This document shows, piece after piece, positions 49,639 to 64,000 of a stretch of DNA of 64,000 nt. This DNA comes from Colwellia sp. 20A7 (GTDB lineage Bacteria; Pseudomonadota; Gammaproteobacteria; Enterobacterales; Alteromonadaceae), in contig NZ_CP047130.1 in NCBI RefSeq assembly GCF_009832865.1, positions 4,216,001 through 4,280,000 of the forward strand, read 5' to 3'. The translations under genes and the position numbers were made by a program. Every line of letters begins with the position of its first letter. Position 1 is the stretch's first letter. Under the pieces are notes generated by a model. It saw nothing but the letters and a program-made list of their open reading frames with translations, was not told the origin of the DNA and did not search any database.

Positions 49639-50367
49639 TTGAATAAAAAGCATATATTATTAATTGATGATGATCATGAGTTAGCAGAGCTTTTAGTCGA
49701 TTACTTAGCCCAGCAGAATTTTCTTGTTCACTGCTGCTTTGACGGTCAATCTGGTCTCGAGCAGGCTTTCACTAATAAATACGATTTAATCTTACTTGAT
49801 GTAATGATGCCAAAGCTTAATGGTTTTGAAGTATTGAAAGCACTGGGTCAAGAGCACAAAACGCCTGTTTTAATGTTAACAGCGAAAGGCGATCATAGTG
49901 ATAAAGTTCGAGGCTTAGAATTAGGTGCTGATGATTACCTAGCAAAACCTTTTCATCATCAAGAATTATTAGCACGTATTAATGCAATTTTACGTCGAAT
50001 TCAATTAGTGAGCCAACAAAACGAGCCTTCCATTCAAGCGACTCACGAACAAGAAAAGTCTCTTTTAACAGTAAATGATATAGCACTTAATCATGCGATA
50101 AGAGCGGCCTCTTGCCATGGGAATTCCATTGAATTAACAGGTACTGAATATCAAATATTAACGTTATTATTAGAAAATCACGGTAAAATAATTTCTAAAG
50201 ATACCATTTCAGAGCAAGTATTAAGCCGAAAACTTAGTCCGTTTGATCGTAGTATTGACGTACATATTGGTAATATTCGTAGAAAATTCCTTCCTTTTTG
50301 TTCCGGTGAAAAAATAAAAACAGTCCGTGGTGCTGGTTATTTATTCTTAACAGGTGAGGATAGTTAA
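49639..50367 (+). CDS. cpxR: CpxR-like OmpR-family response regulator
   Basis: This 242-residue regulator has a receiver (DDD pocket, D54 in ILLDVMMPKLNG, lysine in YLAKPFHH) and a winged helix ending KTVRGAGYLFL. Sequence and context (CpxP-like gene divergent, CpxA-like kinase next) support a CpxR role. It starts at TTG 49639 with TAAGGTAAG upstream. In E. coli Cpx responds to misfolded envelope proteins. Confidence 0.9.
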   Translation: MNKKHILLIDDDHELAELLVDYLAQQNFLVHCCFDGQSGLEQAFTNKYDLILLDVMMPKLNGFEVLKALGQEHKTPVLMLTAKGDHSDKVRGLELGADDYLAKPFHHQELLARINAILRRIQLVSQQNEPSIQATHEQEKSLLTVNDIALNHAIRAASCHGNSIELTGTEYQILTLLLENHGKIISKDTISEQVLSRKLSPFDRSIDVHIGNIRRKFLPFCSGEKIKTVRGAGYLFLTGEDS

Positions 50368-50368
50368 C

Positions 50369-51802
50369 ATGTCTCTTATCAAGACGTCGTCTAAAATGAA
50401 GACCTTGTTATCTTCATTTACCGTTAAGCTATTTGTGTGGTTTTGGCTTATTGCTATTACATCAATTATTAGTACACGCTGGATTTCTCAACAGCTGTCA
50501 AATGATGCTATTCGTGAAGTAGTTAGCCAAGAGCCAAAACCTGATGAACTGTATCAATTAAACAAAATGGCAAAACGTATTACACGTCATAAAGCAGACA
50601 ACATTGAGCAATTATTAACACAACAAGAAAAAAGACTTGTCCGCACACCCTTTAATATTTGGTTAAAAAGTACCGATGACAATTCAAGGGTGGTTAGTGC
50701 TATACCGTTGCCAACAAAGCTACAACGCGTATTAACTGATTACCTTAGCGAGAACTCTTTTACTCAACCAAAAACTAGCTTTTTTTCACACACAGAAGTG
50801 GTTGGTCCGGCGGTAATCAATATTAATAATCAGGCTTATCAACTTTTTATTTCGCGTAAAGTTCACAAACAAAATATAAGTCAAATTGTTCAATCGCTAC
50901 CCTACTGGCTGCGTATTCTTACGCCAACTTTAATCAGTTTTTTACTCTGCTTGCTACTAGCACACTCATTTAGTAAGCCTATTCGCCTCATTAAAAAAGC
51001 AACGACAAAATTAGGTCAAGGTGATTTTGACTCTCGTGTTGAAGGCGTTGGTCAACTTAGTGGCGAGCTAGAGCAATTAGCAAATAGTTTTAATAAAATG
51101 GCAGAGCAACTACAACAAAACCAAAGCTCACAACGGCGTTTATTAGGTGATGTTTCACATGAACTTCGTTCACCTATGACAAGGCTGCAAATGGCACTAG
51201 GGTTAGCACAACAAGAATCAACAACACCACAAGCCCGTGAACAATATTTACAGCGTTGCCAACGAGAAATCGATCGGTTAGATCATATGATTGAAAATGT
51301 ATTAGTACTCTCTCGATTAGAAAACACCTTACAAAAAGCAGAATATGAACAAGTTAATCTGTCGACATTGATACAAAATATTATAAACGATGAGCAATTT
51401 ATAGCTGATAAGAAGTCTATTAAAATTAACTATATTGCGCCTGCTAAAATAATACTATTAGCTGACCAAACCTTACTCACAAGTGCAATTAGTAACGTAC
51501 TTAACAACGCAGTAAAATATAGCCCAGAACAAAGCGCGATTAATGTTAAATTATCGGTAGAAAAACAAAAGGTTATTTTAGTCGTTAGTGATAGCGGCAA
51601 TGGCGTGCCTGAAGAGTCATTAACGCAGCTTTTTACACCATTTTATCGGGTAAATCTTGCGAGAGATCGTGCAACAGGTGGAACAGGTTTAGGTTTAGCA
51701 ATAGCGAAACAAGCTGTTATCACGCACCAAGGTGAAATTCTTGCTAAAAATAACGCAGATAATGGATTATCTGTTATTATCGAACTTCCTTATTTTGAAT
51801 AA
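50369..51802 (+). CDS. cpxA: CpxA-like sensor histidine kinase
   Basis: This 477-residue inner-membrane kinase has a helix at about 18-38, a periplasmic sensor (about 40-190) and a helix at about 190-210. HAMP (FSKPIRLIKKATTKL), HisKA with phosphohistidine in GDVSHELRSPMTRL and HATPase with DSGNGVP and GGTGLGLAI follow. The ATG at 50369 has GAGGA upstream; a GTG at 50354 overlaps the regulator. It follows the CpxR-like gene by one base. Confidence 0.92.
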   Translation: MSLIKTSSKMKTLLSSFTVKLFVWFWLIAITSIISTRWISQQLSNDAIREVVSQEPKPDELYQLNKMAKRITRHKADNIEQLLTQQEKRLVRTPFNIWLKSTDDNSRVVSAIPLPTKLQRVLTDYLSENSFTQPKTSFFSHTEVVGPAVININNQAYQLFISRKVHKQNISQIVQSLPYWLRILTPTLISFLLCLLLAHSFSKPIRLIKKATTKLGQGDFDSRVEGVGQLSGELEQLANSFNKMAEQLQQNQSSQRRLLGDVSHELRSPMTRLQMALGLAQQESTTPQAREQYLQRCQREIDRLDHMIENVLVLSRLENTLQKAEYEQVNLSTLIQNIINDEQFIADKKSIKINYIAPAKIILLADQTLLTSAISNVLNNAVKYSPEQSAINVKLSVEKQKVILVVSDSGNGVPEESLTQLFTPFYRVNLARDRATGGTGLGLAIAKQAVITHQGEILAKNNADNGLSVIIELPYFE

Positions 51803-51836
51803 AATAATATATTAACAAAGACGTATTTACTTATCT

Positions 51837-54257
51837 ATGAACACATCTGCTTCTACTCAAAAAAAGTCACTTTTTTCACATAAATTATTAAAAATAATTC
51901 CGGCAATATTTATAAGTATCTACCTGATTATTTGGGGTATTTCATCGCCTCTTAGTAAGTATTTTATTGAGCCTTTATTACAAGAACAAGGATTAACACT
52001 ATCATCTGAGGCGAGTATTTACTACAACCCCTTTTTAAGCCAATTAACGATTAGTGATTTTGCTCTATACAGCAATAATGCAAATGAAGCAGAAAAAGTA
52101 CTTTCTTTAAATAAATTAACCGTTCGTTTAACGTTATATCGTTTATTGTTTGACGAAATAGTCGTCAGCGAATTTGAATTAAATGACGTTTATCTTAAAG
52201 TAGTCAAAACCCCTTCTCAGTTAATCATTGCGGGTATTGATTTAAATAAAGAAAGCGATACGGCACCTGAAGAAAAAACGCCTGAAACTGTATCAGAGCC
52301 ACTTCCGTATCAACTGATATTACCGCGACTATCATTAAATAAAGTCAATATTGATATAAATAATAACGAAATACCTCATCAAATAGATATCAATGAACTA
52401 TTAATTAGCGAAATAAAAGCAAACCTAGAATCTCAAACTGCACGAGTAAGTTTCCAGAGCGCTATAGATGGCACAGCACTAGAAATAGTTGCTGATGCAG
52501 TATTTGATAATGGACAAGGTGAAGTTAATAGTCAGTTATCAATAAACGATTACCCAATTCAAAAAATACAGCCTTACGTCACTGAACTCTCTGAACTTAG
52601 CGGTTTTCTTTCATTTACAAGTCAGCAAAAAGTAACTATCGCGTCAGATATAGTTACTTTACATGTTAATAAAGCGGAACTGAGTAACAAAGATCTTATC
52701 GTTGGTTATCAAGAACAATTTTTTAACCTTAAATACTTTAAAACAAGTATCGATGATTTACTACTTACGCTTAATGGCGATAAGATCACTGAACTAAGTG
52801 GTATGAGCCAACTAACGCTAAATGATGCAGAGGTTCATTATGAAAAAACAAGTCAAAAGTTGGCTTATATTAAGCAATTAGCATTACAAGATATTAGCTT
52901 TTATTTAACTGACGGCGAGCCGCAAGTAAAAATAGCAAACCTTATTATTGACGAAATTTATGGCTCAAAAAATGAAGAGACAACATACCCACCTATCGTT
53001 GCTTTAAAACAATTTAGTGTTAAAGATGTTTTTGCCAATGCAAAACAACTCTCTATCGATACGATAATTTTAGATAGTTTACAAAGTAACTTAATTTTAA
53101 ATGAAGAAAGTGCGATAGCTAATTTAGTTTCATTACCTATATCAGAAGCCGAACCTGAAAAAGATGAGGTGCTAGAAGAAGTGGTAACAGTTGAAGTTGA
53201 AACCTCACCACAAGAAATCCCCTTCATTATTTCATTAAACAAGTTTTCATTAATAAGCGATAACCAGCTAACTCTCATAGATAATAGTGTTGAGCCTATG
53301 ATGCAAAGTAAAGTGATTATAGACACACTAACGTTAGGTGCATTAAGTAATGCAGCGAACAAACAAGAAGAGCAAACACCATTTGAATTAAAAGGCCGTA
53401 TTAATAAATATGCGCATTTTGACTTTAAGGGCTTCAGCCTGCCCTTTTCTCAAACACAGAAACACCATTTAGAAGGATCTTTACAAGAGCTTTCGTTGCC
53501 AGCAGTCTCTCGCTACATGAAAAAAGCGGTAAATATGGAACTAAAAAGTGGACAACTCAATACTGACATAAAGGTGACGCTAACTGGCGAAGAACTTAAT
53601 GGCAAAGTGCTTATTCTCTTACGGAGTTTAGAAACAGCCGTAGCAGGAAATGATGAAGCGGGCTCTTTAATTGATCAAGGTGCATTACCTTTTAATATGG
53701 CACTTGGTATGCTGAAAGATGGTCATGGTGATGTAGAGCTTGACGTAGATCTATCGGGTTCAACCTCAGATCCAAGCTTTGGTATGAGTAGTATAGTAAC
53801 GTTAATAACCCAAAAAGCAATTTGGATGGCTACAAAAGACTATGTTATGACTACATTCGTCCCTTACGCTAATGTTGTTTCTGTTGCGATGAGTGTAGGT
53901 GAATTTGCCTTAAAATTACGCTTTGATGATTTGATATATCAAACTAAACAAATTGAGCCAAACGAAGCACAGCAAGCCTACTTGCAAGGCTTTATCGCGC
54001 TAATGCAAGATAAAGAAAAAACCCGAGTAAATATTTGCGGCATTAGTGTTCCAGCCGATATAAACTTAAATGCCGGCACTAAAGTAACTGATATAAAACA
54101 CATCAATCAACTAAAAGAGATTGCTGAACAACGAGAAGCCACGTTTAAAGATTATATTATTGAGCATGGTGGCATTGCCTCATCAAGGCTATTATTATGT
54201 GCACCTAAAATAGATAGCAGCGAAAACGCACAACCGCGTATAGAGTTGTCTGTTTAA
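51837..54257 (+). CDS. DUF748 (AsmA-like) envelope protein
   Basis: This 806-residue protein has one N-terminal membrane helix (about 20-40, LLKIIPAIFISIYLIIWGI) and a long periplasmic part. It matches DUF748, an AsmA-like family with repeated strands (SQLTISDFALYSN, FHFKGFSLPFS-like, GMLKDGHGDVELDVDLSGS). Such proteins are proposed to carry phospholipids to the outer membrane or shape it. An acidic low-complexity stretch lies near 440-460. It lies 34 bases after the CpxA-like gene, so it is probably in the same envelope-stress operon. Confidence 0.85.
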   Translation: MNTSASTQKKSLFSHKLLKIIPAIFISIYLIIWGISSPLSKYFIEPLLQEQGLTLSSEASIYYNPFLSQLTISDFALYSNNANEAEKVLSLNKLTVRLTLYRLLFDEIVVSEFELNDVYLKVVKTPSQLIIAGIDLNKESDTAPEEKTPETVSEPLPYQLILPRLSLNKVNIDINNNEIPHQIDINELLISEIKANLESQTARVSFQSAIDGTALEIVADAVFDNGQGEVNSQLSINDYPIQKIQPYVTELSELSGFLSFTSQQKVTIASDIVTLHVNKAELSNKDLIVGYQEQFFNLKYFKTSIDDLLLTLNGDKITELSGMSQLTLNDAEVHYEKTSQKLAYIKQLALQDISFYLTDGEPQVKIANLIIDEIYGSKNEETTYPPIVALKQFSVKDVFANAKQLSIDTIILDSLQSNLILNEESAIANLVSLPISEAEPEKDEVLEEVVTVEVETSPQEIPFIISLNKFSLISDNQLTLIDNSVEPMMQSKVIIDTLTLGALSNAANKQEEQTPFELKGRINKYAHFDFKGFSLPFSQTQKHHLEGSLQELSLPAVSRYMKKAVNMELKSGQLNTDIKVTLTGEELNGKVLILLRSLETAVAGNDEAGSLIDQGALPFNMALGMLKDGHGDVELDVDLSGSTSDPSFGMSSIVTLITQKAIWMATKDYVMTTFVPYANVVSVAMSVGEFALKLRFDDLIYQTKQIEPNEAQQAYLQGFIALMQDKEKTRVNICGISVPADINLNAGTKVTDIKHINQLKEIAEQREATFKDYIIEHGGIASSRLLLCAPKIDSSENAQPRIELSV

Positions 54258-54274
54258 TCCCATTTATTATCATA

Positions 54275-54304
54275 AAATTAGCTCTGTCTTAGCAGAGCTA
54301 ATTT
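54275..54304 (+). terminator. Terminator of the cpxRA-DUF748 operon
   Basis: AAATTAGCTCTG and CAGAGCTAATTT form a 12-bp perfect stem with a 6-base loop, 17 bases after the DUF748 gene. Confidence 0.8.
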
Positions 54305-54474
54305 CTGCGTAAATCAATCTCCGCAAGTATAAATAGTGTCGATATAACTTTACGAGTAACCGTATGGAATATTGATCGTAGATATACCTAGTTAAATAAA
54401 CTAAGATAATAATATTATTATATTTTAAACGCTCTTTTACTGTTAAAGCTCTTACGTTTAGAGGATATGTTTTA

Positions 54475-57400
54475 TTGTTTTTTATTAAGTTTACCTATTT
54501 TATTATTTTTCTTGTTGGCCTTATTACGCCTGCCTTCAGTCATGAGCATTCTTCAAAATTCACTAACGAATATTCTGTTGAAATGTTAACGTCTGAAGAT
54601 GGTTTTGTTGCGTCAGAAATCTATTCAATTATTCAAGATAATAAAGGGTTACTTTGGTTTGGCACCGGTGAAAATGGTGTTATGCGTTATGATGGCCGTA
54701 AAGTTACTCTTTTTGAATTTGACGGTATTAGTACTAACAGCTTATCCCATAATTATGCTGGCAACCTGATGTTAGACCGTGAAGGGAAAATATGGATAGG
54801 CACTTGGGGAGGTGGCGCTAACCTATATGAACCTAAGACAGGAAAATTTGAGCACTTTGTTCATGAACCCGAACGAGCTGACTCTATTTCATCTAACCGT
54901 ATACAAAGCTTACACCATGATAAAGAAGGAGCTATTTGGTTAGGCTCATATGAACATGGTTTAAATAAATACCTTGGAGATAATAGTTTTGAGCACGTTC
55001 AAAATATTGAAGGCGTCGACTCGAGTTTATCTCATAATAGAATATGGGATATTGAAGACAACGATAGTAATAGCCTTTGGGTGGCGACTAGCTTTGGTTT
55101 AAATTTATATAATAAACGTAATCATACTTTTTCCCATTTTCTCCCTGAGCCAGCCAACTTAACGCCCACAGGCGCAAACGAAATTAGAAGCATTTTAAAG
55201 ACGTCACAAAATAAAATTTATATTGGCACTCAAAAAGGTCCATTTATATTTGATACAGTGAATAATGTTTTTACCCCCTTAGAAACTTTAATCGATGAAA
55301 CCTTAGGTCAAGTCAACTCAATGATTGAAGATCATGAAGGTAATATTTGGTTTGTAACGAGTAAAGGCTTATTTCATCAATCACAAACAAGTTCTCACAT
55401 TGAAAGATTTGAGCTTGAATACAGTCATGGTTTAAGAATAGTTTTTGAAGATAGCTCCCAAACACTCTGGGTTACTAATGAGAATCACGGTATTTACAAA
55501 ATAATACCAAAACGAAAATTTAAAACTATTAATAGTGATAATTTAACAGCCCCCAATGGCATCATTGTTGATCCTAATGGCGATGTATTAATCGCATCAT
55601 CATTATCTGCATTGTATAAATGGCATGTATCAGCACAAAAGTTAGAAACATTATCCCCAAATATTTTTAGTAATGAGAATAGTTATGAAGGAAATCGCTT
55701 ATTCGATAAGCCTATTATGATTTCGGATGGAGTAAACAGCTTATGGCTTGGACAAGATGATGGGTTAGCTAAATTTAACTTCATAACCCAACAAGTTCAA
55801 TTATTAAAATATCCTCCTTCAGATCCTCATTACAAACAGTTCAGAGAGATACGAGCACTTAACATTGATCGCCATGGAACCCTTTGGATTGGAACATATA
55901 AAAACGGTATATATCACTATAATCCATCGACTAAAACCTTTACTCACTTAGATGATTCTTTGGGCCTATCTCACCCTGAAGTATTAAAAATATATAAAGA
56001 TAATGAACAAAAAATTTGGGTTGGGACCGGAGATGGCTTAAACCTATGGGATGAAGATAATCATAAATTTGTAGTATTTAAAAATGATATAAATAAAACG
56101 GGCAGTTTATTAGGAAAAATAGTACAAGATATACATCAGTCCAAAGATGGTAAATTATGGATTGCCACGCAAAAAGGGCTCAATTTATATTTACCTGAAA
56201 CCAAAACTTTCCAATATTTTGATAAAAACAATGGTTTACCCACATCGTTAATTCGTGCAATTACCGATGATAATATGGGAAATTTGTGGCTAACAACCAA
56301 CAAAGGAATTTCAAAATTAGATCCTCTATCTGGAGATATTACCAACTTTGACCGCTATAGTGGCTTATTAGGCTTAAACTATTATCCGGGCAGCCTAGTA
56401 AAAGCTGATGACGGAACATTATTTACCAGTAGTCAACGAGGAGTTGAGTTTTTTAGTACCTCACCTATTGAAACAAATGATTATGAATTTAATATTGTTT
56501 TAACGGGTTTTAATAAAATGGGAAAGCCCATAAAGCTTGATACCCCATACGCTTATGTTACCGAGATGCAACTGTCTTATCGTGATTACTTTTTCTCTTT
56601 TGAATTCTCTGTTTTAGACTTTATTTCTCCTAACAAAAATATGTACGCTTATAAATTGGAAGGATACGATGAAAACTGGATTGATATGGGTAATAGAAAT
56701 ATAGTTTCATTTACTAATTTAGATGGTGGTACTTATAAATTATTAGTTAAAGCAACAAACAGTAGTGGTAAGTGGGGTGATAAAATATTATCCATTGATC
56801 TTATTGTATCTAACCCTCCCTGGAAAACGTGGTGGGCTTATAGTTTATATGTATTAGTCTCTATTCTAACTATATTTGTCTTTATTTATTTGAGAACACG
56901 ACTACAACAGAAAGAAATTGATATTCAGAAAAAATTTGTTGTTGTACTTGAGGAGCAAGTCATGGAAAAAACGGCATCATTGAACGCCCAAGCTAAAGAT
57001 TTAATAGCAGTAAATAAACAATTGAAGATACTTACTTATCAAGATGGGTTAACCGGTTTATATAATCGACGATATTTTGATAAGAGGTTAAATGAAGAAA
57101 TAAGCAGGCATCACCGTCAGCAACAACCCCTTTCTCTTATTATTGGCGATATAGATCACTTTAAACTTTTTAATGATTTTTATGGTCATCAAAAAGGTGA
57201 TGATTGCCTTAAAAAAGTAGCACAATGCATTATTGATAATGTGGCCCGTATCACAGATGCCAATTGTCGTTATGGAGGCGAAGAGTTTGCCATTATTCTG
57301 CCAAACACCGCTGTTGCAGAATCGACACTTATTGCTGAGCGCTTATGCTCAGCCATAGAAAATATGAAAATTATCCATGAAAAATCAAGAACTAGTGAAT

Positions 57401-57546
57401 TTATTACATTAACACTAGGCGTGGTAACTGTACTTCAAGAGCAAAAGACATCCGTAGACTCAATCGTACTAAGCGCCGACAAAGCCCTTTATCTTGGCAA
57501 ATCCAATGGTAGAAATAACATAACTCGCGCTGAGTATAAGTCATAA
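54475..57546 (+). CDS. Propeller-sensor diguanylate cyclase
   Basis: This 1023-residue membrane protein has a signal peptide (to about 23). A periplasmic two-bladed propeller sensor follows, of repeated regulator-propeller motifs (LLWFGTGENGVMRYDG, KIWIGTWGGGANLYE, TLWIGTYKNGIYHY). Then come a Y_Y_Y domain (about 690-770), a helix at about 786-806, a coiled coil and a GGDEF domain. The active site is GGEEF (934-938), and an inhibitory RxxD site lies five residues before it. It makes c-di-GMP. It starts at TTG 54475 after GAGGA; an ATG at 54467 is out of frame. Confidence 0.93.
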   Translation: MFFIKFTYFIIFLVGLITPAFSHEHSSKFTNEYSVEMLTSEDGFVASEIYSIIQDNKGLLWFGTGENGVMRYDGRKVTLFEFDGISTNSLSHNYAGNLMLDREGKIWIGTWGGGANLYEPKTGKFEHFVHEPERADSISSNRIQSLHHDKEGAIWLGSYEHGLNKYLGDNSFEHVQNIEGVDSSLSHNRIWDIEDNDSNSLWVATSFGLNLYNKRNHTFSHFLPEPANLTPTGANEIRSILKTSQNKIYIGTQKGPFIFDTVNNVFTPLETLIDETLGQVNSMIEDHEGNIWFVTSKGLFHQSQTSSHIERFELEYSHGLRIVFEDSSQTLWVTNENHGIYKIIPKRKFKTINSDNLTAPNGIIVDPNGDVLIASSLSALYKWHVSAQKLETLSPNIFSNENSYEGNRLFDKPIMISDGVNSLWLGQDDGLAKFNFITQQVQLLKYPPSDPHYKQFREIRALNIDRHGTLWIGTYKNGIYHYNPSTKTFTHLDDSLGLSHPEVLKIYKDNEQKIWVGTGDGLNLWDEDNHKFVVFKNDINKTGSLLGKIVQDIHQSKDGKLWIATQKGLNLYLPETKTFQYFDKNNGLPTSLIRAITDDNMGNLWLTTNKGISKLDPLSGDITNFDRYSGLLGLNYYPGSLVKADDGTLFTSSQRGVEFFSTSPIETNDYEFNIVLTGFNKMGKPIKLDTPYAYVTEMQLSYRDYFFSFEFSVLDFISPNKNMYAYKLEGYDENWIDMGNRNIVSFTNLDGGTYKLLVKATNSSGKWGDKILSIDLIVSNPPWKTWWAYSLYVLVSILTIFVFIYLRTRLQQKEIDIQKKFVVVLEEQVMEKTASLNAQAKDLIAVNKQLKILTYQDGLTGLYNRRYFDKRLNEEISRHHRQQQPLSLIIGDIDHFKLFNDFYGHQKGDDCLKKVAQCIIDNVARITDANCRYGGEEFAIILPNTAVAESTLIAERLCSAIENMKIIHEKSRTSEFITLTLGVVTVLQEQKTSVDSIVLSADKALYLGKSNGRNNITRAEYKS

Positions 57547-57597
57547 AAAAAATTGATAAAATAGGTTCTTTATTTAACTTTCACTATTTCTGGGTTA

Positions 57598-57626
57598 TGC
57601 ACATATTTTGCACATTGTTTAGTTAT
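57598..57626. promoter_or_regulatory. TGCACAT direct repeat (site A)
   Basis: TGCACAT-ATTT-TGCACAT, followed by TGTT-TAGTTAT as a weaker third unit; the period is 11 bases throughout. Matching sites lie before the EF-hand gene (60096) and the cotH gene (61090). The OmpR/PhoB-like spacing and the regulator gene downstream suggest autoregulation. Confidence 0.6.
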
Positions 57627-57671
57627 GCTTATACATCGCTAAGTTATTTTAAGCCTTAGCAGTGTATAAGT

Positions 57672-57707
57672 CTTAAGTTATGCTTAAACCTTAAGTTATG
57701 TTTAAAC
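57672..57707. repeat. Two tandem 18-bp units before the kinase gene
   Basis: CTTAAGTTATGCTTAAAC and CTTAAGTTATGTTTAAAC follow each other with one mismatch. Related sequence (TTTAGTTATGCTTATAC at 57618, CTAAGTTATTTTAAG at 57639) precedes them. Each unit is itself a dyad. Confidence 0.75.
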
Positions 57708-57778
57708 ATTATTGATAATCACAAATATTGCAATGTCACTCGTTATTTATCCAGATTAGATTAGGATCTTCCTTTCAA

Positions 57779-59260
57779 ATGAAAATTCAAAATAAACTAT
57801 TTTTGATCTTATTTAGCTTTAGTTTTTTACTCGTCACTTTATTAGTCTTCCTAATGCAATGGAGCATTGGCAAAGGCATGATTAACTATGTAAATACCAA
57901 AGAGGTAGAAGCGCTTAAACCCGTGGTGATAGAGCTAGCTAAAGAATATCAGATAGAAAATAACTGGGTTAGCATGACTGGACGTCATGATAAATTTATT
58001 CGTTTAATTTCAGAACAACTTGCTGCAAGCGAATTTTCCCCAAAACAAAAAAAACGCTCATCTGAACACTTAGCTTTTCGTCAACCTCCACCAACTCGTC
58101 CTTCATCAGAGCAAGGTTCTCGTCCACCTAGAAATGACTTACATGAAGGAAGAACACCACCACCATCGCGAGAAAATGAAGCCTTTTATGCTTTACTTGA
58201 TCGCAACCAAAATCTTGTGGTTGGTAGATATATTGAGGAAATAGATTACAGTAAAACAGAAATAGTAGTTAAAGAGATTATCGTTGGTTATTTTGCTGTT
58301 TCTAAGCGTAATCAGCTTACCCAAGGCTATGAAGTCGACTTTATTGAGCAACAACAATATTACTTATGGATTATAGCCCTATTTGTTATGAGTTTAGTTG
58401 CTTTAGTAACTCTGCCATTAGCTCGGCATTTAGTTGAACCTCTAAAGCTAATAACTCAAGGAATGCACAAACTCACCCAAGGTGACTATCAACAATCTAT
58501 TAATTTAAACAGAGAAGATGAACTTGGAAGACTAAGTAGAGATTATAATGAATTAGCGCATTCTTTGGCAGAGAGTGAAACGACTAGAAAGCGTTGGTTA
58601 GCTAATATATCCCATGAACTACGCACACCTGTAGCTATCTTACGTGGCGAATTAGAAGCGATGTTAGATGAAGTGAGACCATTGAATAAAAAAAATATTG
58701 CTTCAGCAAATGACGAGGTAAAGCATCTTCAGCGATTAATTGATGACTTAAATTTACTGACCAGTGCTGACATTGGCGGTATGCGCTATCGTAAAAAAAA
58801 TGAAGAATTAACACAGTTAATGCATGGCGTGATAGATAAATATCGTAGTTATTTGAATGATGCTAATATCACACTTGATATTGAAATCATTGAACAAAGT
58901 ATTAATGTTTACGTCGATAAAACTCGCCTTTGCCAATCATTTGAAAATATTATTAATAATGCGATCAAATATTCATCCGCATCATGCTTTAAAATATCCT
59001 TGAGCATTGAAAATTCTCATCATCACTCAAACGTATTGATTAAATTTGAAGACAATGGTGTCGGCGTAGACGATATTCATTTGAGTCATTTATTTGAACA
59101 TTTATACCGTGTTGAAGATTCTCGAAATAGAAAAACAGGCGGTTCAGGTTTAGGTTTATCGATATGCCGACATATTGTCATGGCACATCAGGGAGAAATT
59201 ACCGCTGAAAACTCGCCTCTTGGTGGTTTAGCTATTATTATTAAGTTACCTATAGTTTAA
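57779..59260 (+). CDS. BaeS/CpxA-type sensor histidine kinase with Pro-rich sensor loop
   Basis: This 493-residue inner-membrane kinase has a helix at about 7-27 and a periplasmic sensor containing a Pro/Arg-rich stretch (FRQPPPTRPSSEQGSRPP, about 100-135). A helix at about 198-218, HAMP (LVEPLKLITQGMHKLTQGDY), HisKA with phosphohistidine in ANISHELRTPVAIL and HATPase with EDNGVGV and GGSGLGLSI complete it. The start at 57779 fits the signal-anchor; a TTG at 57728 would add 17 odd residues. Its regulator follows by 45 bases. The Pro/Arg stretch echoes those in the next three proteins. Confidence 0.92.
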   Translation: MKIQNKLFLILFSFSFLLVTLLVFLMQWSIGKGMINYVNTKEVEALKPVVIELAKEYQIENNWVSMTGRHDKFIRLISEQLAASEFSPKQKKRSSEHLAFRQPPPTRPSSEQGSRPPRNDLHEGRTPPPSRENEAFYALLDRNQNLVVGRYIEEIDYSKTEIVVKEIIVGYFAVSKRNQLTQGYEVDFIEQQQYYLWIIALFVMSLVALVTLPLARHLVEPLKLITQGMHKLTQGDYQQSINLNREDELGRLSRDYNELAHSLAESETTRKRWLANISHELRTPVAILRGELEAMLDEVRPLNKKNIASANDEVKHLQRLIDDLNLLTSADIGGMRYRKKNEELTQLMHGVIDKYRSYLNDANITLDIEIIEQSINVYVDKTRLCQSFENIINNAIKYSSASCFKISLSIENSHHHSNVLIKFEDNGVGVDDIHLSHLFEHLYRVEDSRNRKTGGSGLGLSICRHIVMAHQGEITAENSPLGGLAIIIKLPIV

Positions 59261-59305
59261 TAATACATAATATACTTATACTTATTCCTGCTTTAGAGTA
59301 CTAGA

Positions 59306-59971
59306 ATGTCAAATTCAATATTGATTGTAGAAGATGAAATTAAGCTTGCAGAGCTATTAGCTGATTATTTCAAACTAACAGAATATGAACCTCATTTAAT
59401 TCATCATGGCGATGAAGTTATTGATTGGGTAAAAAAACACCAGCCTAGCGCAATTTTACTCGATATCATGTTGCCAGGTAAAAATGGCATAGATATATGC
59501 AAAGAAATTCGCCAATTTTCGAATATCCCTATTTTACTCGTTACTGCAAAAGTTGATGAAATCGATCGATTATTAGGACTAGAGTTAGGTGCTGATGACT
59601 ATATATGTAAACCTTTTAGCCCGCGTGAAGTTGTTGCTCGAGTTAAAGCCGTTTTAAGAAGAACCCAAACGATTCAATATGCTACTGAGATATTAAAACT
59701 TGATGAACATCGTTTTACCGTTGAATATCATAATCAAGAAGTAACACTAACCTCGGTAGAGTTTCAATTATTAAAACCTTTGGCTAACAAACCAGAAAGA
59801 ATTTTTACCCGTGAACAGTTAATGCAAAACATGTATTCGGATCAACGCATTGTAAACAACCGTACAATTGACAGTCACATTAAAAAACTTCGCAAGAAGC
59901 TTGCTGATATTAGTGAAGGAAAAGACTGGATTCAATCCGTTTATGGCACGGGTTATCGCTTAATGTTGTAG
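59306..59971 (+). CDS. BaeR-like OmpR-family response regulator
   Basis: This 221-residue regulator has a receiver (EDE pocket, D53 in LLDIMLPGKNG, lysine in YICKPFSP) and a winged helix ending IQSVYGTGYRLML. It belongs to the BaeR/CpxR group. It is the likely reader of the TGCACAT direct repeats found before its own operon, the EF-hand operon and cotH (inference). Confidence 0.94.
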   Translation: MSNSILIVEDEIKLAELLADYFKLTEYEPHLIHHGDEVIDWVKKHQPSAILLDIMLPGKNGIDICKEIRQFSNIPILLVTAKVDEIDRLLGLELGADDYICKPFSPREVVARVKAVLRRTQTIQYATEILKLDEHRFTVEYHNQEVTLTSVEFQLLKPLANKPERIFTREQLMQNMYSDQRIVNNRTIDSHIKKLRKKLADISEGKDWIQSVYGTGYRLML

Positions 59972-60095
59972 CTTACTTGAAACTATAAGCTTTACAGTAT
60001 TAATACCGTGCCTTAATTAACGGAACTTCTGCGTAATAAATACCCTTTTAATTTTGTTATATTAATGATACCAATTCTAAAATTTCCTCTTTTCT

Positions 60096-60113
60096 TGCAC
60101 ATTATTTGCTATT
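60096..60113. promoter_or_regulatory. TGCACAT direct repeat (site B)
   Basis: TGCACAT-TATT-TGCTATT has the same 11-base period as sites A and C and lies about 108 bases before the EF-hand gene. Confidence 0.5.
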
Positions 60114-60221
60114 TCTATTGTTAACATTACTTTGAAAATTAGCGTTGAACAATAGCTTTACATAGTAATTTTGAACATGGTTATTCACAATAATAGTAAC
60201 CATGCAGCAACAGGAGATCTT

Positions 60222-60518
60222 ATGAATATATATATCAAGCAGGCAATAGTCGTTACATTATTAGTCTTAGCCTCAAGCCAAGTATTAGCAAAAAGTAATC
60301 AAAACAGTGAAGATAGACCATCTCGCCCTACTTTTGAATCAATAGACAGTAATAGTGATGGTGATATCGATTTTGACGAATTTTCATCTCATGAACTGCC
60401 GCATGGTGATCATCAAACTGTATTTGATGAAATGGATACTGACAATAATGGCGTAATCAGTAATGAAGAATTTACTAATCATAAACCACCAAGACCAAAA
60501 GGTCGTAAGGATAATTAA
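60222..60518 (+). CDS. Exported EF-hand protein
   Basis: This 98-residue exported protein has a signal peptide cleaved near VLA-K (residue 23). Two canonical EF-hand calcium loops follow: DSNSDGDIDFDE (42-53) and DTDNNGVISNEE (72-83). A basic Pro-rich tail (HKPPRPKGRK) ends it. The start at 60222 has AGGAGATC upstream; an in-frame start at 60171 would hide the signal peptide. It is followed after two bases by a companion gene. Calcium binding in the periplasm is expected; the partner is unknown. Confidence 0.88.
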   Translation: MNIYIKQAIVVTLLVLASSQVLAKSNQNSEDRPSRPTFESIDSNSDGDIDFDEFSSHELPHGDHQTVFDEMDTDNNGVISNEEFTNHKPPRPKGRKDN

Positions 60519-60520
60519 TA

Positions 60521-60982
60521 ATGATTAATAACATTGGCTCAAGCATGCAAATGCCACAACAAAGAACTGAGCAAAGTTTAACTGAAGAGCAACAAAGTAT
60601 CCTCACCGAAACGTTATCGCAATATGACGCGGAAAATTTGAGCGAATCAGATGCCCTTAGTATTGTCGAGACTTTGTCACAAGCTGGCATTTCACCTAGT
60701 GCCGCAGTTGAAAAATCTATGTCTGATTTAGGTTTTGATGCAAAAAGTATTGGTGATTCAGCGAAAGTATCTGAAAGCGGTAGCAGACCACCGCCACCAC
60801 CGAAACAAAGTACGGAAGAAATCACTTCAATGGTTGATTACTTAGCAGAGCTGATGGAAGAAAAGTTAGCGGCAAGTAACAGCAACGAATTAAGCGATGA
60901 AGATAAGGAATCTATCTTAACGCAAGTTTTTGAAAAATTTGATATTGAAGATGGTGAATCCATTATTAATACGACTGCATAA
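60521..60982 (+). CDS. Companion protein of unknown function, Pro-rich centre
   Basis: This 153-residue protein lacks a signal peptide. Two helical acidic halves (LTEEQQSILTETLSQYDAEN, LSDEDKESILTQVFEKFDIE) look like diverged EF-hand or calmodulin-type helices and are joined by SGSRPPPPPKQ. I do not recognise a family. It starts two bases after the EF-hand gene with AAGGAT upstream, so the two are co-translated. A strong terminator follows. Confidence 0.78.
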   Translation: MINNIGSSMQMPQQRTEQSLTEEQQSILTETLSQYDAENLSESDALSIVETLSQAGISPSAAVEKSMSDLGFDAKSIGDSAKVSESGSRPPPPPKQSTEEITSMVDYLAELMEEKLAASNSNELSDEDKESILTQVFEKFDIEDGESIINTTA

Positions 60983-61017
60983 AATTTAATTAGCTTGTTT
61001 TATTTCGTGTTGTTCTG

Positions 61018-61054
61018 AAAAAAGCGTTGCCCTTATAAAGGCAACGCTTTTTTT
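61018..61054 (+). terminator. Terminator of the EF-hand operon
   Basis: AAAAAAGCGTTGCC and GGCAACGCTTTTTT pair perfectly around an 8-base loop and end in a T-run. It lies 35 bases after the companion gene and separates it from cotH. Confidence 0.95.
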
Positions 61055-61089
61055 AGTTTTGTCATACTATTGTAATATTCCTCATTTGT

Positions 61090-61107
61090 TGCACATTGTT
61101 TGCACCA
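61090..61107. promoter_or_regulatory. TGCACAT direct repeat (site C)
   Basis: TGCACAT-TGTT-TGCACCA has an 11-base period. A TATGAT -10 element lies at 61132 with no good -35, and the repeat ends where a -35 would begin. That is the geometry of activation by PhoB-like regulators. The cotH start is 48 bases further on. Confidence 0.6.
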
Positions 61108-61155
61108 TCACTTAATAAAGTGTACTTCTCGTATGATTTTTTAAGAAGCTAACAA

Positions 61156-63753
61156 ATGAAATCCTCATATCTCTTATCTTATACTTTATTACTCAGTAGT
61201 AGCTTGTTATTCGGCTGTGGTGGTTCAAGTAGTGAAGATGATTCCACTGAAAGTGACCCAACCGAAGTAACACAACCCTCAACTTCTTCAAGTTTGATTA
61301 TCAATGAAATTGTTGCCAGCGCAGCAGATGGTGGTAACGACTGGATTGAACTTTATGCACTTGAAGGTCCTGTCGACTTATCAAGCTATAGCATTGTAGA
61401 TGATAATGAAGAACACAATGCTCAGGCTTTGCCTGATATCACACTAGCACAAGGTGACTTTATTGTTATTCAAGCCATTGATGAAGCCGACACTCCACCT
61501 AGCGATGGATACTATGTAACTTTTAAACTGGGTAGTGATGATGCTGTCACCTTATTTAAAGATGATGTGCAAGTAGATCAACTAGACTGGGAAGAAGACG
61601 ATGCACTCGAAGGCACTAGTTACGGATTATTCGTTGATGGTTCGGGTAGTGAGCAAACGTTATCACCAACCCCTGGAGAGGCTAATATAGAATACACTGC
61701 CACTGAAGTAGTTATTCGCGATGTAATACTTAACGAAGATGCACCACTACGTATTAATGAAGTTGTCGCTAATGATAGTGACGGAGGTTATGACTGGTTT
61801 GAGCTTTATGCTACTGGAGATACTGCTGTTTATTTAGGTGACTACACCATAGCAGATGAAAATGATGAATTATTTTCTCTGCCTGGCATAACACTCAATC
61901 CAGGAGAGTTTTATCAGATATATGCAACAAGTGATGAAGTCGAAAATAGCGAAACCGTTAACTTAAAATTAGGTTCAAGTGACCAATTAAGCTTGTATCA
62001 AGGAGACGATCTTGTTGACCAACTTAAATGGAGTAAAGGACAAGCATTAATTAATTATAGTTATGGTCGCTTCCCTGATGGCAGTGATGGTACTCAAACA
62101 CTAACACCTTCACCTAGAACCAGTAATAGCACTGCACTTCATGGACCATTATTAATCAATGAGATTATGGCAAGTGATATTGATGGCGGTAATGATTGGT
62201 TTGAACTATATAACAATGGCAGTACAAATATTTCTTTAGCCGATTATCAAGTCCTTGATGAAAGTGATGACATTGATCCTGTAACTCTTCCTGATATTGT
62301 TTTAGCGCCTAATGAATATATTGTTATTTACGCAACAGATGAAGATCCTAATGATTATTACGTTCCTTTTAAACTAGGTAAAACAGACGAATTAAGTCTT
62401 ATATTAAATGATGAAACCGTCGACTATATCGATTGGGACGATAGTGATGTTATTGCTGGCTTTAGTTATGGATTAAGTGATAGTTCAAGTACTAGCGAAA
62501 CTAGTTGGGATAAAGACTTTTTAACGCCAACACCAGGCAGTGAAAATGAACTATCAACAGCATTTAATTCAAATATTGTTAATAATTTATACATTAATAT
62601 CAGTACCGAAAATTGGCAGGATATTTTATATAACCCACTTGACGAAGAATATCATGAAACCAGTATTACCTTTAACGGTGTAACATTAGACAGTGTTGCT
62701 ATTCGTACCAAAGGCGGCTCAAGTTTAAGCAGTGTTGCGCAATCAAGTAGTGATAGATATAGCTTTAAACTTGATATTAATGAATATGTTGACGGACAGA
62801 AATTCTTTGGTTTGAAAAAGTTTACCTTACAAAACTCTTTCAACGACCCTTCTTATATGCGTGAAGTGATTGCCTACGAATTACTGGATGAGATGGGTGT
62901 AGCAACACCAAAAAATTCTTATGTTAACTTCTACGTAAATGGTGAATTATTTGGCTTATATCTTATGGTTGAAGCGATTGACGGTGAATTTTTAGAAAAC
63001 AACTTCGCCAACTCGAATGGTGACCTTTATAAGCCAGACGGGACTGGTAGCGATCTTATCTGGATAAATGATGATATTAACAGCTACAGTGATATTAATT
63101 TACAAACCAATGAAGATACCACTGACAACGGCGCCTTTATCAACTTTGTTGAACAAATGGATAATGGCTCTACTGACGTAATTGATACTGATAGTTTACT
63201 TAGATATATGTCGGTTAGCGTTGCCCTATCAAACCTCGATAGCTATCACGGTACTTTAGCGCATAACTACTACATTTATGAACAAGATGGCGTATTTAGT
63301 TTCCTACCTTGGGATTTCAATGAATCTTTTGGCACATTCTCAATGAACTGTAATGCAGATATGAGAGAGCTTTATATCGACGAGCCAACCAGTGGTGCTC
63401 TGGCTGATAGACCTATGATTGCTAATGTATTCGCCGATGATGACAGCTTAGCTATTTACCATGAATATTTATGGCAATTAATCGACGGGCCTTTATCGAG
63501 TGGTAATTTTAGTGCACGTGTCACAGAAATTGCGGACTTAATTCGTGAGCATGTAGCTAACGACCCAAGTGCTTTTTATGGTGAAGCTGCATTCGAGCAA
63601 AACCTTAATTCGACAGTGAGTAACTTCTTTGGCTTAACCGAGTTTGTCGACTACCGTGTAGAGAATATGACTAAGCAATTGCTAGGTGATCTTCCTTCAA
63701 CCAATAATGGTAGTGGTTTTTGTAGTAGCTCAGCTGGTGGTCCACCGCGTTAA
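61156..63753 (+). CDS. CotH-kinase family lipoprotein with three lamin-tail domains
   Basis: This 865-residue predicted lipoprotein (lipobox LLFGC, Cys21) has an acidic Ser/Asp/Thr linker. Three lamin-tail domains follow at about 47-175, 197-320 and 331-460, each opening with an INEI-type strand and DGGxDWxELY. A CotH-kinase domain (about 475-815) has RTKGGSS, VNGELFGLYLMVEAID, GDLYKPDG and FLPWDFNESFG. It ends CSSSAGGPPR. Bacillus CotH phosphorylates spore-coat proteins; Gram-negative homologues are little studied. An envelope-facing protein kinase is inferred. The candidate substrates are the neighbouring exported proteins. Confidence 0.92.
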   Translation: MKSSYLLSYTLLLSSSLLFGCGGSSSEDDSTESDPTEVTQPSTSSSLIINEIVASAADGGNDWIELYALEGPVDLSSYSIVDDNEEHNAQALPDITLAQGDFIVIQAIDEADTPPSDGYYVTFKLGSDDAVTLFKDDVQVDQLDWEEDDALEGTSYGLFVDGSGSEQTLSPTPGEANIEYTATEVVIRDVILNEDAPLRINEVVANDSDGGYDWFELYATGDTAVYLGDYTIADENDELFSLPGITLNPGEFYQIYATSDEVENSETVNLKLGSSDQLSLYQGDDLVDQLKWSKGQALINYSYGRFPDGSDGTQTLTPSPRTSNSTALHGPLLINEIMASDIDGGNDWFELYNNGSTNISLADYQVLDESDDIDPVTLPDIVLAPNEYIVIYATDEDPNDYYVPFKLGKTDELSLILNDETVDYIDWDDSDVIAGFSYGLSDSSSTSETSWDKDFLTPTPGSENELSTAFNSNIVNNLYINISTENWQDILYNPLDEEYHETSITFNGVTLDSVAIRTKGGSSLSSVAQSSSDRYSFKLDINEYVDGQKFFGLKKFTLQNSFNDPSYMREVIAYELLDEMGVATPKNSYVNFYVNGELFGLYLMVEAIDGEFLENNFANSNGDLYKPDGTGSDLIWINDDINSYSDINLQTNEDTTDNGAFINFVEQMDNGSTDVIDTDSLLRYMSVSVALSNLDSYHGTLAHNYYIYEQDGVFSFLPWDFNESFGTFSMNCNADMRELYIDEPTSGALADRPMIANVFADDDSLAIYHEYLWQLIDGPLSSGNFSARVTEIADLIREHVANDPSAFYGEAAFEQNLNSTVSNFFGLTEFVDYRVENMTKQLLGDLPSTNNGSGFCSSSAGGPPR

Positions 63754-63773
63754 GGCTCAATAATAATTATAGT

Positions 63774-63812
63774 GACAGAAGTGAGCATCGCCATATAACG
63801 CTCAATTCTGTC
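63774..63812 (+). promoter_or_regulatory. Hairpin between cotH and the next gene
   Basis: GACAGAA pairs with TTCTGTC and, after a 2x2 internal loop, GAGC pairs with GCTC. No T-run follows. It may be an attenuator or an RNA-processing stem in a shared transcript. Confidence 0.4.
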
Positions 63813-63855
63813 TCTGTATTCCCATCTATCACTATTAATTTTGAGCGAGAAACCA

Positions 63856-64000
63856 ATGGAAACTATGCAACCTAATTTTGATCATGGTAACAACAATGAT
63901 TTTTTTCAAAACCCCGATTTACATCTAAAAAACAAAATAAATCTTGATGAAGAGAGCGTATTAGCAGATACAAAAATTTCGCCCCATCCATCGTTAGAAG
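63856..64000 (+). CDS. Start of a further gene, cut by the window edge
   Basis: The frame is open from ATG 63856 to the window end (48 codons: METMQPNFDHGNNNDFFQNP... then KNKINLDEESVLADTK). The visible part is hydrophilic and without a signal peptide. I do not recognise it from this much. In other proteobacteria a VTC-type polyphosphate polymerase gene often follows cotH, so that is one possibility. The ribosome site is weak. Confidence 0.5.
   Translation, partial: METMQPNFDHGNNNDFFQNPDLHLKNKINLDEESVLADTKISPHPSLE

Follow-up and report, generated by a model that had tools for sequence, protein, structure and literature searches.

The window, as we call the whole 64,000-nucleotide stretch of Colwellia sp. 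20A7 DNA analysed here (contig NZ_CP047130.1, positions 4,216,001 to 4,280,000), carries towards its right end a two-component system, a small EF-hand operon and a gene for a CotH-kinase lipoprotein (Table 1). The promoters of these three units share an 11-bp direct repeat, which we describe as the candidate operator of a regulon that reaches beyond this locus. An earlier reading of the same DNA, hereafter the original prediction, had placed an OmpR/PhoB-family regulator amid the set, at 59306, and both domains of such a protein, Response_reg and Trans_reg_C, were found there. The cotH product is assigned by sequence to the CotH kinase family (PF08757, 209 bits against a gathering threshold of 23.8), and its gene is followed in the same direction by a VTC-domain gene and, past the window edge, by a DUF4956 and then a Porin_O_P gene (L013: PF09359, PF16316, PF07396).

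The best NCBIfam model for the regulator is BaeR (317 bits, below the equivalog cut-off of 380 and 93 bits over CreB); the protein is 55% identical to E. coli BaeR and has in common with it a C-terminal stretch, RTIDSHIKxLRxKL, that we take to be the recognition helix. BaeS is the best model for the kinase, which is 33% identical to E. coli BaeS and also scores below the cut-offs (361 against 500 for NF012163, 349 against 603 for NF007837). Because both proteins are nearest to BaeS and BaeR yet stay below the equivalog cut-offs, we label the system BaeSR-like: judged from sequence, it is a system that should work like BaeSR, yet it is not BaeSR itself.

Table 1 Genes, operators, predicted −10 elements and terminator of the locus (aa, amino acids; ORF, open reading frame)
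Feature	Window coordinates	Strand	Remarks
Kinase-regulator operator	57598..57619	+	Two 11-bp direct repeats, TGCACATATTT and TGCACATTGTT; exact match; profile match 57595-57631, 20.0 bits
Predicted −10 TATGCT	57624..57629	+	15 nt past the start of the second repeat; TAnnnT columns invariant in 20/20 homologous sites
Sensor histidine kinase, BaeS-like, 493 aa	57779..59260	+	HAMP, HisKA, HATPase_c
Response regulator, OmpR/PhoB family, BaeR-like, 221 aa	59306..59971	+	Response_reg and Trans_reg_C; putative operator binder
EF-hand operon operator	60085..60117	+	Upstream half-site TCCTCTTTTCT, then TGCACATTATT and TGCTATTTCTA; profile 26.2 bits
Predicted −10 TAACAT, extended TG at 60119-60120	60122..60127	+	Placed by 20-site alignment
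Secreted two-EF-hand protein, 98 aa, tail HKPPRPK	60222..60518	+	PF13202 and PF00036, two stretches
ORF153, EF-hand partner protein, RPPPPP segment	60521..60982	+	Conserved next to EF-hand gene
Intrinsic terminator between EF-hand operon and cotH	61015..61056	+	17-pair stem, then T-run
cotH operator	61079..61111	+	Upstream half-site TCCTCATTTGT, then TGCACATTGTT and TGCACCATCAC; profile 31.3 bits, E 7.1e-7 over the whole genome
Predicted −10 TAAAGT of cotH	61116..61121	+	Spacing equals that of 20 aligned sites
CotH-kinase lipoprotein, 865 aa, three lamin-tail domains, C-terminus GGPPR	61156..63753	+	PF08757; PF00932 in 3 stretches
VTC-domain gene, start only	63856..64000	+	PF09359 in L013 (position 1 = window 54001)

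A tandem direct repeat in three promoters

The pattern TGCACAT-N4-TGC occurs exactly at 57598, 60096 and 61090, each time on the forward strand, in intergenic DNA and with repeat starts 11 bases apart, as had been predicted; no fourth exact copy exists in the window. The whole genome holds 12 exact copies against 3 of the reversed pattern, and 3 of these 12 fall inside 3.5 kb here. Of the nine copies elsewhere, seven lie within ORFs of 90 aa or longer; L009 is an intergenic copy without the extended motif, and L004 sits at the promoter of a YHYH lipoprotein gene. With one mismatch allowed, the short pattern is found 7 times in the window against 5.4 in shuffles, which is no enrichment, and the evidence for an operator consequently rests on a longer form. 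As the short and one-mismatch patterns are too loose alone, a 48-column profile was adopted.

In this longer form, the three window sites have self-identities of 0.55, 0.55 and 0.59 at offset 11, and 20 homologous sites have a mean identity of 0.56 at that offset, compared to 0.26-0.39 at the remaining offsets from 6 to 16. The second half-site of the EF-hand promoter is reduced to TGCTATT. The EF-hand and cotH promoters have a third half-site, TCCTC[AT]TTT, 11 bp further upstream, which at the kinase promoter is faint or missing. Scored with a 48-column weight matrix derived from other genomes, the three sites reach 42.9 (EF-hand), 34.1 (cotH) and 28.4 bits (kinase); the next-best score within the window is 10.5 bits, and the reversed window has no match of at least 14 bits (against 3 forward).

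Taking the −10 hexamer as −12 to −7 puts the repeats at about −38 to −17 and thus over the −35 position. At none of the three predicted −10 boxes, that of cotH included, was a sigma-70-type hexamer pair reported; the original prediction had placed the cotH repeat where a −35 box is missing. The arrangement shows the features of an OmpR/PhoB-type direct repeat, namely an 11-bp half-site period, overlap with the −35 and a fixed distance to the −10; repeats over the −35 with the −10 intact are the layout of OmpR/PhoB-type activated promoters. No Rfam family was found in 50000-64000, and no RNA structure in the kinase leader (z 1.11).

Conservation in related genomes

A search of 147 genomes of the family for the regulator found 67 places in 54 genomes (E 1e-60), and 40 of the 66 places outside the own genome were taken (the 39 best plus G078). 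Conservation in orthologous promoters, a check the original prediction had called for, extends to all nine EF-hand/ORF153 operons that adjoin the regulator, where the sites differ from TTGCACATTNTTTGCA by 0-2 mismatches, and to all ten other CotH genes found in the family. The EF-hand/ORF153 pair of L077 has the motif at 2 mismatches, the kinase promoters in 8 of the 9 closest loci (all but L051; regulators at least 75% identical) at 2-3, and the YHYH promoters in regulator loci in 3 of 3 at 1-3. The 40 loci contain 13 exact TGCACAT-N4-TGC copies, each of which precedes a kinase, EF-hand, YHYH or di-haem peroxidase gene. The CCP_MauG di-haem cytochrome c peroxidase genes with a site are those of L063, L067, L073, L074 and L081; four of the five products are Pro-rich N-terminally, and in L063, L067 and L074 the site is divergent from the kinase gene.

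Twenty sites from ten relatives align without gaps as TTCCTyATTTT, TGCACATTGTT and TGCACATTnnC followed by (T)TGTTAnnnT, with the T, A and T of the −10 (TAnnnT) invariant throughout; they form tandem 11-bp half-sites, TTGCACATTnT, at fixed spacing from a conserved, often extended −10. The profile was built from these 20 promoter sites in 10 other genomes and none from the own genome; neither the L051 and L060 kinase promoters nor the weaker sites upstream of the kinase genes in L053-L083 entered the training set.

Among the 147 genomes, CotH had 10 matches outside the own genome at E 1e-20, four at 61-68% identity (L116-L119) and six at 32-35%. A profile match of 14.8-27.1 bits lies upstream of all ten, and none of the 20 training sites belongs to a CotH gene. 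For two of the distant genes, L120 (gene in L277) and L121 (gene in L046), the start was checked and lies 21 and 116 bp from the site; the four remaining have the match at the expected start position.

ORF153 belongs to no Pfam or NCBIfam family and has 243 homologues (best 120 of 243 listed). It follows the EF-hand gene in nine regulator-adjacent loci and in L077, and no match to it was found behind the EF-hand genes of L053-L056. By eye, its start resembles deltaproteobacterial EF-hand proteins under the profile (L186, L213).

The probable regulon in the genome and beyond

Run over the whole 4.58 Mb genome, the profile gave 38 matches, with surroundings covered for the top eight and a few weaker ones. 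The first three are YHYH1 (8.2e-9), cotH and the EF-hand operon (2.9e-5), followed by YHYH2 (1.8e-4) and the kinase-regulator operon (0.0027). Match 6 (E 0.054) is partial and within an ORF, match 7 (E 0.07) covers the full length of the profile and stands about 60 bp ahead of the gene for a third YHYH lipoprotein, and from rank 8 down all have E >0.1. The motif is therefore not equally common before unrelated genes, as the top genome matches are these promoters and those of the YHYH lipoprotein genes. The three window sites are not fully independent, since the training-site consensus was derived from the window; the YHYH sites are more independent of training, and two had already been met in pattern searches. 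PF14240 (YHYH) scores 238.7, 61.1 and 42.1 bits in the three lipoproteins, against a gathering threshold of 25.

The regulon is thus larger than earlier proposed: it also includes two or three YHYH lipoproteins and, judged by operon layout, the VTC, DUF4956 and porin proteins, whose genes come after cotH. The link that the original prediction drew from an uncharacterised two-component system to CotH and calcium-binding proteins is supported by the genome-wide profile; the word 'uncharacterised' does not stand, as the system is BaeSR-like. No Spy-family gene lies behind the top seven matches of the own genome. Directly upstream of the kinase operon, at 54475-57546, a large Reg_prop/Y_Y_Y protein with a C-terminal GGDEF domain is encoded, with no weight-matrix site of at least 14 bits before its gene.

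We inspected 23 further loci behind profile matches. By Pfam, the downstream genes encode VTC (L256, L268, L271), CotH (L277), EF-hand (L257) and DUF4397 (L270, with L267 below the cut-off) proteins and a cellulose-binding protein (L252), and a YHYH-type string is present in L269, L274 and L279; another 11 of the 23 are without a clear or assigned downstream gene. In one locus (L276:687-2918), a YHYH domain fused to a sulfatase is encoded behind the site. In the named genomes, matches precede EF-hand (L186 by Pfam, others by eye), YHYH (by eye), CotH (L156) and di-haem CCP_MauG genes (L197, the same gene as L103). Spy-family LTXXQ/Metal_resist genes are found under the profile in eight distant loci at 13.9-28.4 bits (L173, L175, L182, L185, L188, L214, L216 and L235, with L182 and L214 below the Pfam cut-offs).

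Tiny secreted proteins of 82-94 aa with a common PP..A.E.C.G...GD stretch also recur behind the operator (L080:13276-13521, L278:978-1247, L169:2336-2617, L180:4760-5038); the three tested (L080, L278, L169) matched no Pfam family.

Probable assignment of the operator to the regulator

At 14 bits or more, the weight matrix finds 51 sites forward and 0 reversed in 758 kb of regulator loci (training sites included), and 56 against 3 in the 1.37 Mb of 80 named loci, two of which (L157, L158) repeat training loci. Across the 147 family genomes, a profile match at E ≤0.001 is present in 25 of 54 with a close regulator homologue compared to 2 of 93 without, and removing the 10 training genomes and the own one leaves 14 of 43 against 2 of 93 (Fisher p 1.3e-6, although such p values overstate independence because the genomes are related). 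The match lies within 10 kb of the regulator homologue in 20 of the 25 genomes and in 9 of the 14 non-training ones; 34 of all 57 matches lie this close. The strict exact pattern gave 21 sites in the same genomes against 1 reversed, in 17 of 54 genomes with the regulator and 3 of 93 without, and 11 of the 21 precede regulon-type genes (some EF-hand assignments by eye). Farther afield, profile matches adjoin regulator homologues in Geobacteraceae, Desulfobulbus, Hahella and, weakly, a Nitrospiraceae genome. That the profile also finds sites next to the regulator in Desulfobacterota and other remote groups suggests an old operator, under which the set of genes was rebuilt.

From this, the repeats are very probably operators for the BaeR-like regulator encoded between them. 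Besides the relatedness of the genomes, several observations weigh against this. Ten of the 21 strict-pattern sites lie within or near unrelated genes, for which reason we take the strict pattern as support only, and 29 of the 54 genomes with a regulator homologue gave no match at E 0.001 (stricter filters). Among relatives, the kinase promoters of L051 and L060 are without a site, the four more distant EF-hand genes (L053-L056) reach 3 mismatches at best, and the sites of the cotH orthologues L118 and L119, with more than 2 mismatches to the strict consensus, are seen by the profile only. At 60054-60083, ahead of the EF-hand operator, there is a weak sigma-70-like pair, though pairs of this kind are no commoner than in shuffles. 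A direct profile match to the E. coli spy and mdtA promoters was rejected, as the similarity is not significant. Finally, 11-bp repeats are used by many OmpR-family regulators, so that regulator family alone does not identify the binder.

The sites could accordingly be true operators of another OmpR-family regulator, with the BaeR-like gene just part of the target set. Other candidates are available in the own genome (64 candidate stretches, 20 of them scored), two genomes without a close regulator homologue have a profile match (G073, G146), and in 5 of the 25 genomes with homologue and match none lies within 10 kb of the regulator. We consider this unlikely, as matches track this very regulator outside the training set and lie beside it in most genomes and beside its homologues in distant groups; the two exceptions are a genome of 87% completeness and one whose match reaches only 14.7 bits in the weight matrix.

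If the BaeR-like regulator is the binder, its phosphorylated dimers would bind the repeats head-to-tail and recruit RNA polymerase as PhoB does, and because it would do so at its own promoter, the kinase-regulator operon would autoactivate. The same signal would activate two or three YHYH genes elsewhere in the genome together with the EF-hand/ORF153 and cotH-VTC-DUF4956-porin operons. Given the kinship with BaeSR, a disturbed envelope is the probable signal, be it through metal, misfolded envelope protein or a polyanion, and the Pro/Arg-rich periplasmic domain of the kinase would sense it.

We infer activation because the repeat covers the −35 region. The same overlap would also suit repressor sites, at which the phosphorylated regulator occludes the −35 and shuts the set off, but the lack of a reported sigma-70-type pair at the three −10 boxes, the conserved, often extended −10 and the annotation of E. 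coli BaeR as a transcriptional activator make repression very unlikely. Chance recurrence of an AT-rich word in three promoters, which the unenriched one-mismatch count in the window would allow, has a practically negligible probability and is refuted by the longer form, the conservation in orthologues, the profile ranking and the reversed-sequence controls.

Pro/Arg-rich segments in sensor and targets

The periplasmic loop of the kinase is Pro/Arg-rich, with PPP or RPP at residues 103, 115 and 127, and the BaeS-like kinases of the 40 loci (L045-L084) have an Arg/Pro-rich insertion of variable length in the periplasmic domain. PPR, RPP or PPP occurs in the sensor part of 34 of the 40, and the median peak content of arginine plus proline in these parts is 0.33 per 60 residues, compared to 0.13 in other ORFs.

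The same tripeptides, picked after the proteins were inspected, are encoded by 26 of 37 genes directly behind sites. Among other ORFs the figure is 55 of 640 (p 6e-18), and among those that a crude rule classes as signal-peptide-like it is 26 of 202 (p 2e-12). This count covers 48 sites (E up to 0.051, of 63), with 11 lacking a downstream ORF left out. With the kinases removed, 17 of 28 target genes encode a tripeptide against 55 of 640 (p 5e-11). In all these counts the effective number is nearer a handful of families, because many targets are mutual orthologues. At the locus and in its regulon, the tripeptide is present in the kinase loop, the EF-hand tail, ORF153, the CotH C-terminus and YHYH1, and not in the VTC, DUF4956, porin and regulator proteins.

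We regard it as conceivable, if doubtful, that the Arg/Pro loop of the kinase senses a polyanion or an acidic calcium-binding envelope protein, that the PPR, RPP and PPP segments of the otherwise unrelated targets are a docking code for the same partner, and that the regulon is an assembly line for a phosphorylated, calcium-loaded surface structure. As a guess, the partner could be polyphosphate made by the VTC protein, or the EF-hand protein, which would then be a feedback brake in the manner of Spy or CpxP.

Comparison with known systems

An operator, a regulator and a gene list are now defined for families with little assigned Gram-negative physiology, that is, CotH with VTC and DUF4956, YHYH lipoproteins and small secreted EF-hand proteins, whose function becomes testable via one switch. 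The Pro/Arg-rich segments common to sensor and targets are a concrete lead to the signal. Among the matches listed from the open-licence literature, we found no paper on this CotH/EF-hand/YHYH regulon, and none in that literature joining YHYH with CotH or EF-hand proteins.

In Pho-box promoters, two 11-bp direct repeats bound by an OmpR-family regulator replace the −35 box. The sites described here likewise have two 11-bp direct repeats in the place of the −35, but the half-site is another one and the regulator is closer to BaeR (317 bits) than to PhoB (214 bits).

A passage of PMC7112168 describes Gram-positive Pel loci in which CotH occurs with a polyphosphate polymerase and DUF4956, and the same trio stands side by side here. 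In contrast to the loci of that passage, ours is Gram-negative and combines the trio with a porin, lamin-tail domains and a BaeR-like operator; inspection by eye of the 9 listed ORFs of 80 aa or more at the cotH locus revealed no Pel gene. In Burkholderia thailandensis, according to an excerpt of PMC9426598, a two-component regulator with 38.6% identity to BaeR acts on an element of a promoter containing TTTGCAC as well as a short direct repeat.

BaeSR of E. coli and Salmonella is the nearest characterised relative of this kinase and regulator. According to a passage of PMC7657598, BaeR binds upstream of spy in E. coli, and Spy-family genes stand under our profile in the eight distant loci. 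The BaeR consensus TTTTTCTCCATDATTGGC, as given in an excerpt of PMC3799227, has a similar CAT-N-ATTnGC arrangement (core CAT-N-ATTGGC), and in three stretches chosen by eye from the E. coli spy/mdtA BaeR regions the best self-match offset is 11 (shuffle p 0.02, 0.04 and 0.14). No mdtABC operon adjoins the present system, whose neighbours are the EF-hand and cotH genes (the whole genome was not searched for mdtABC), and in one relative, L077, an ACR_tran gene lies behind a site. The two systems differ in half-site, TGCAC[AT] here and CTCCAT for BaeR, and in their targets, which here are EF-hand, CotH/VTC/DUF4956, YHYH and porin genes.

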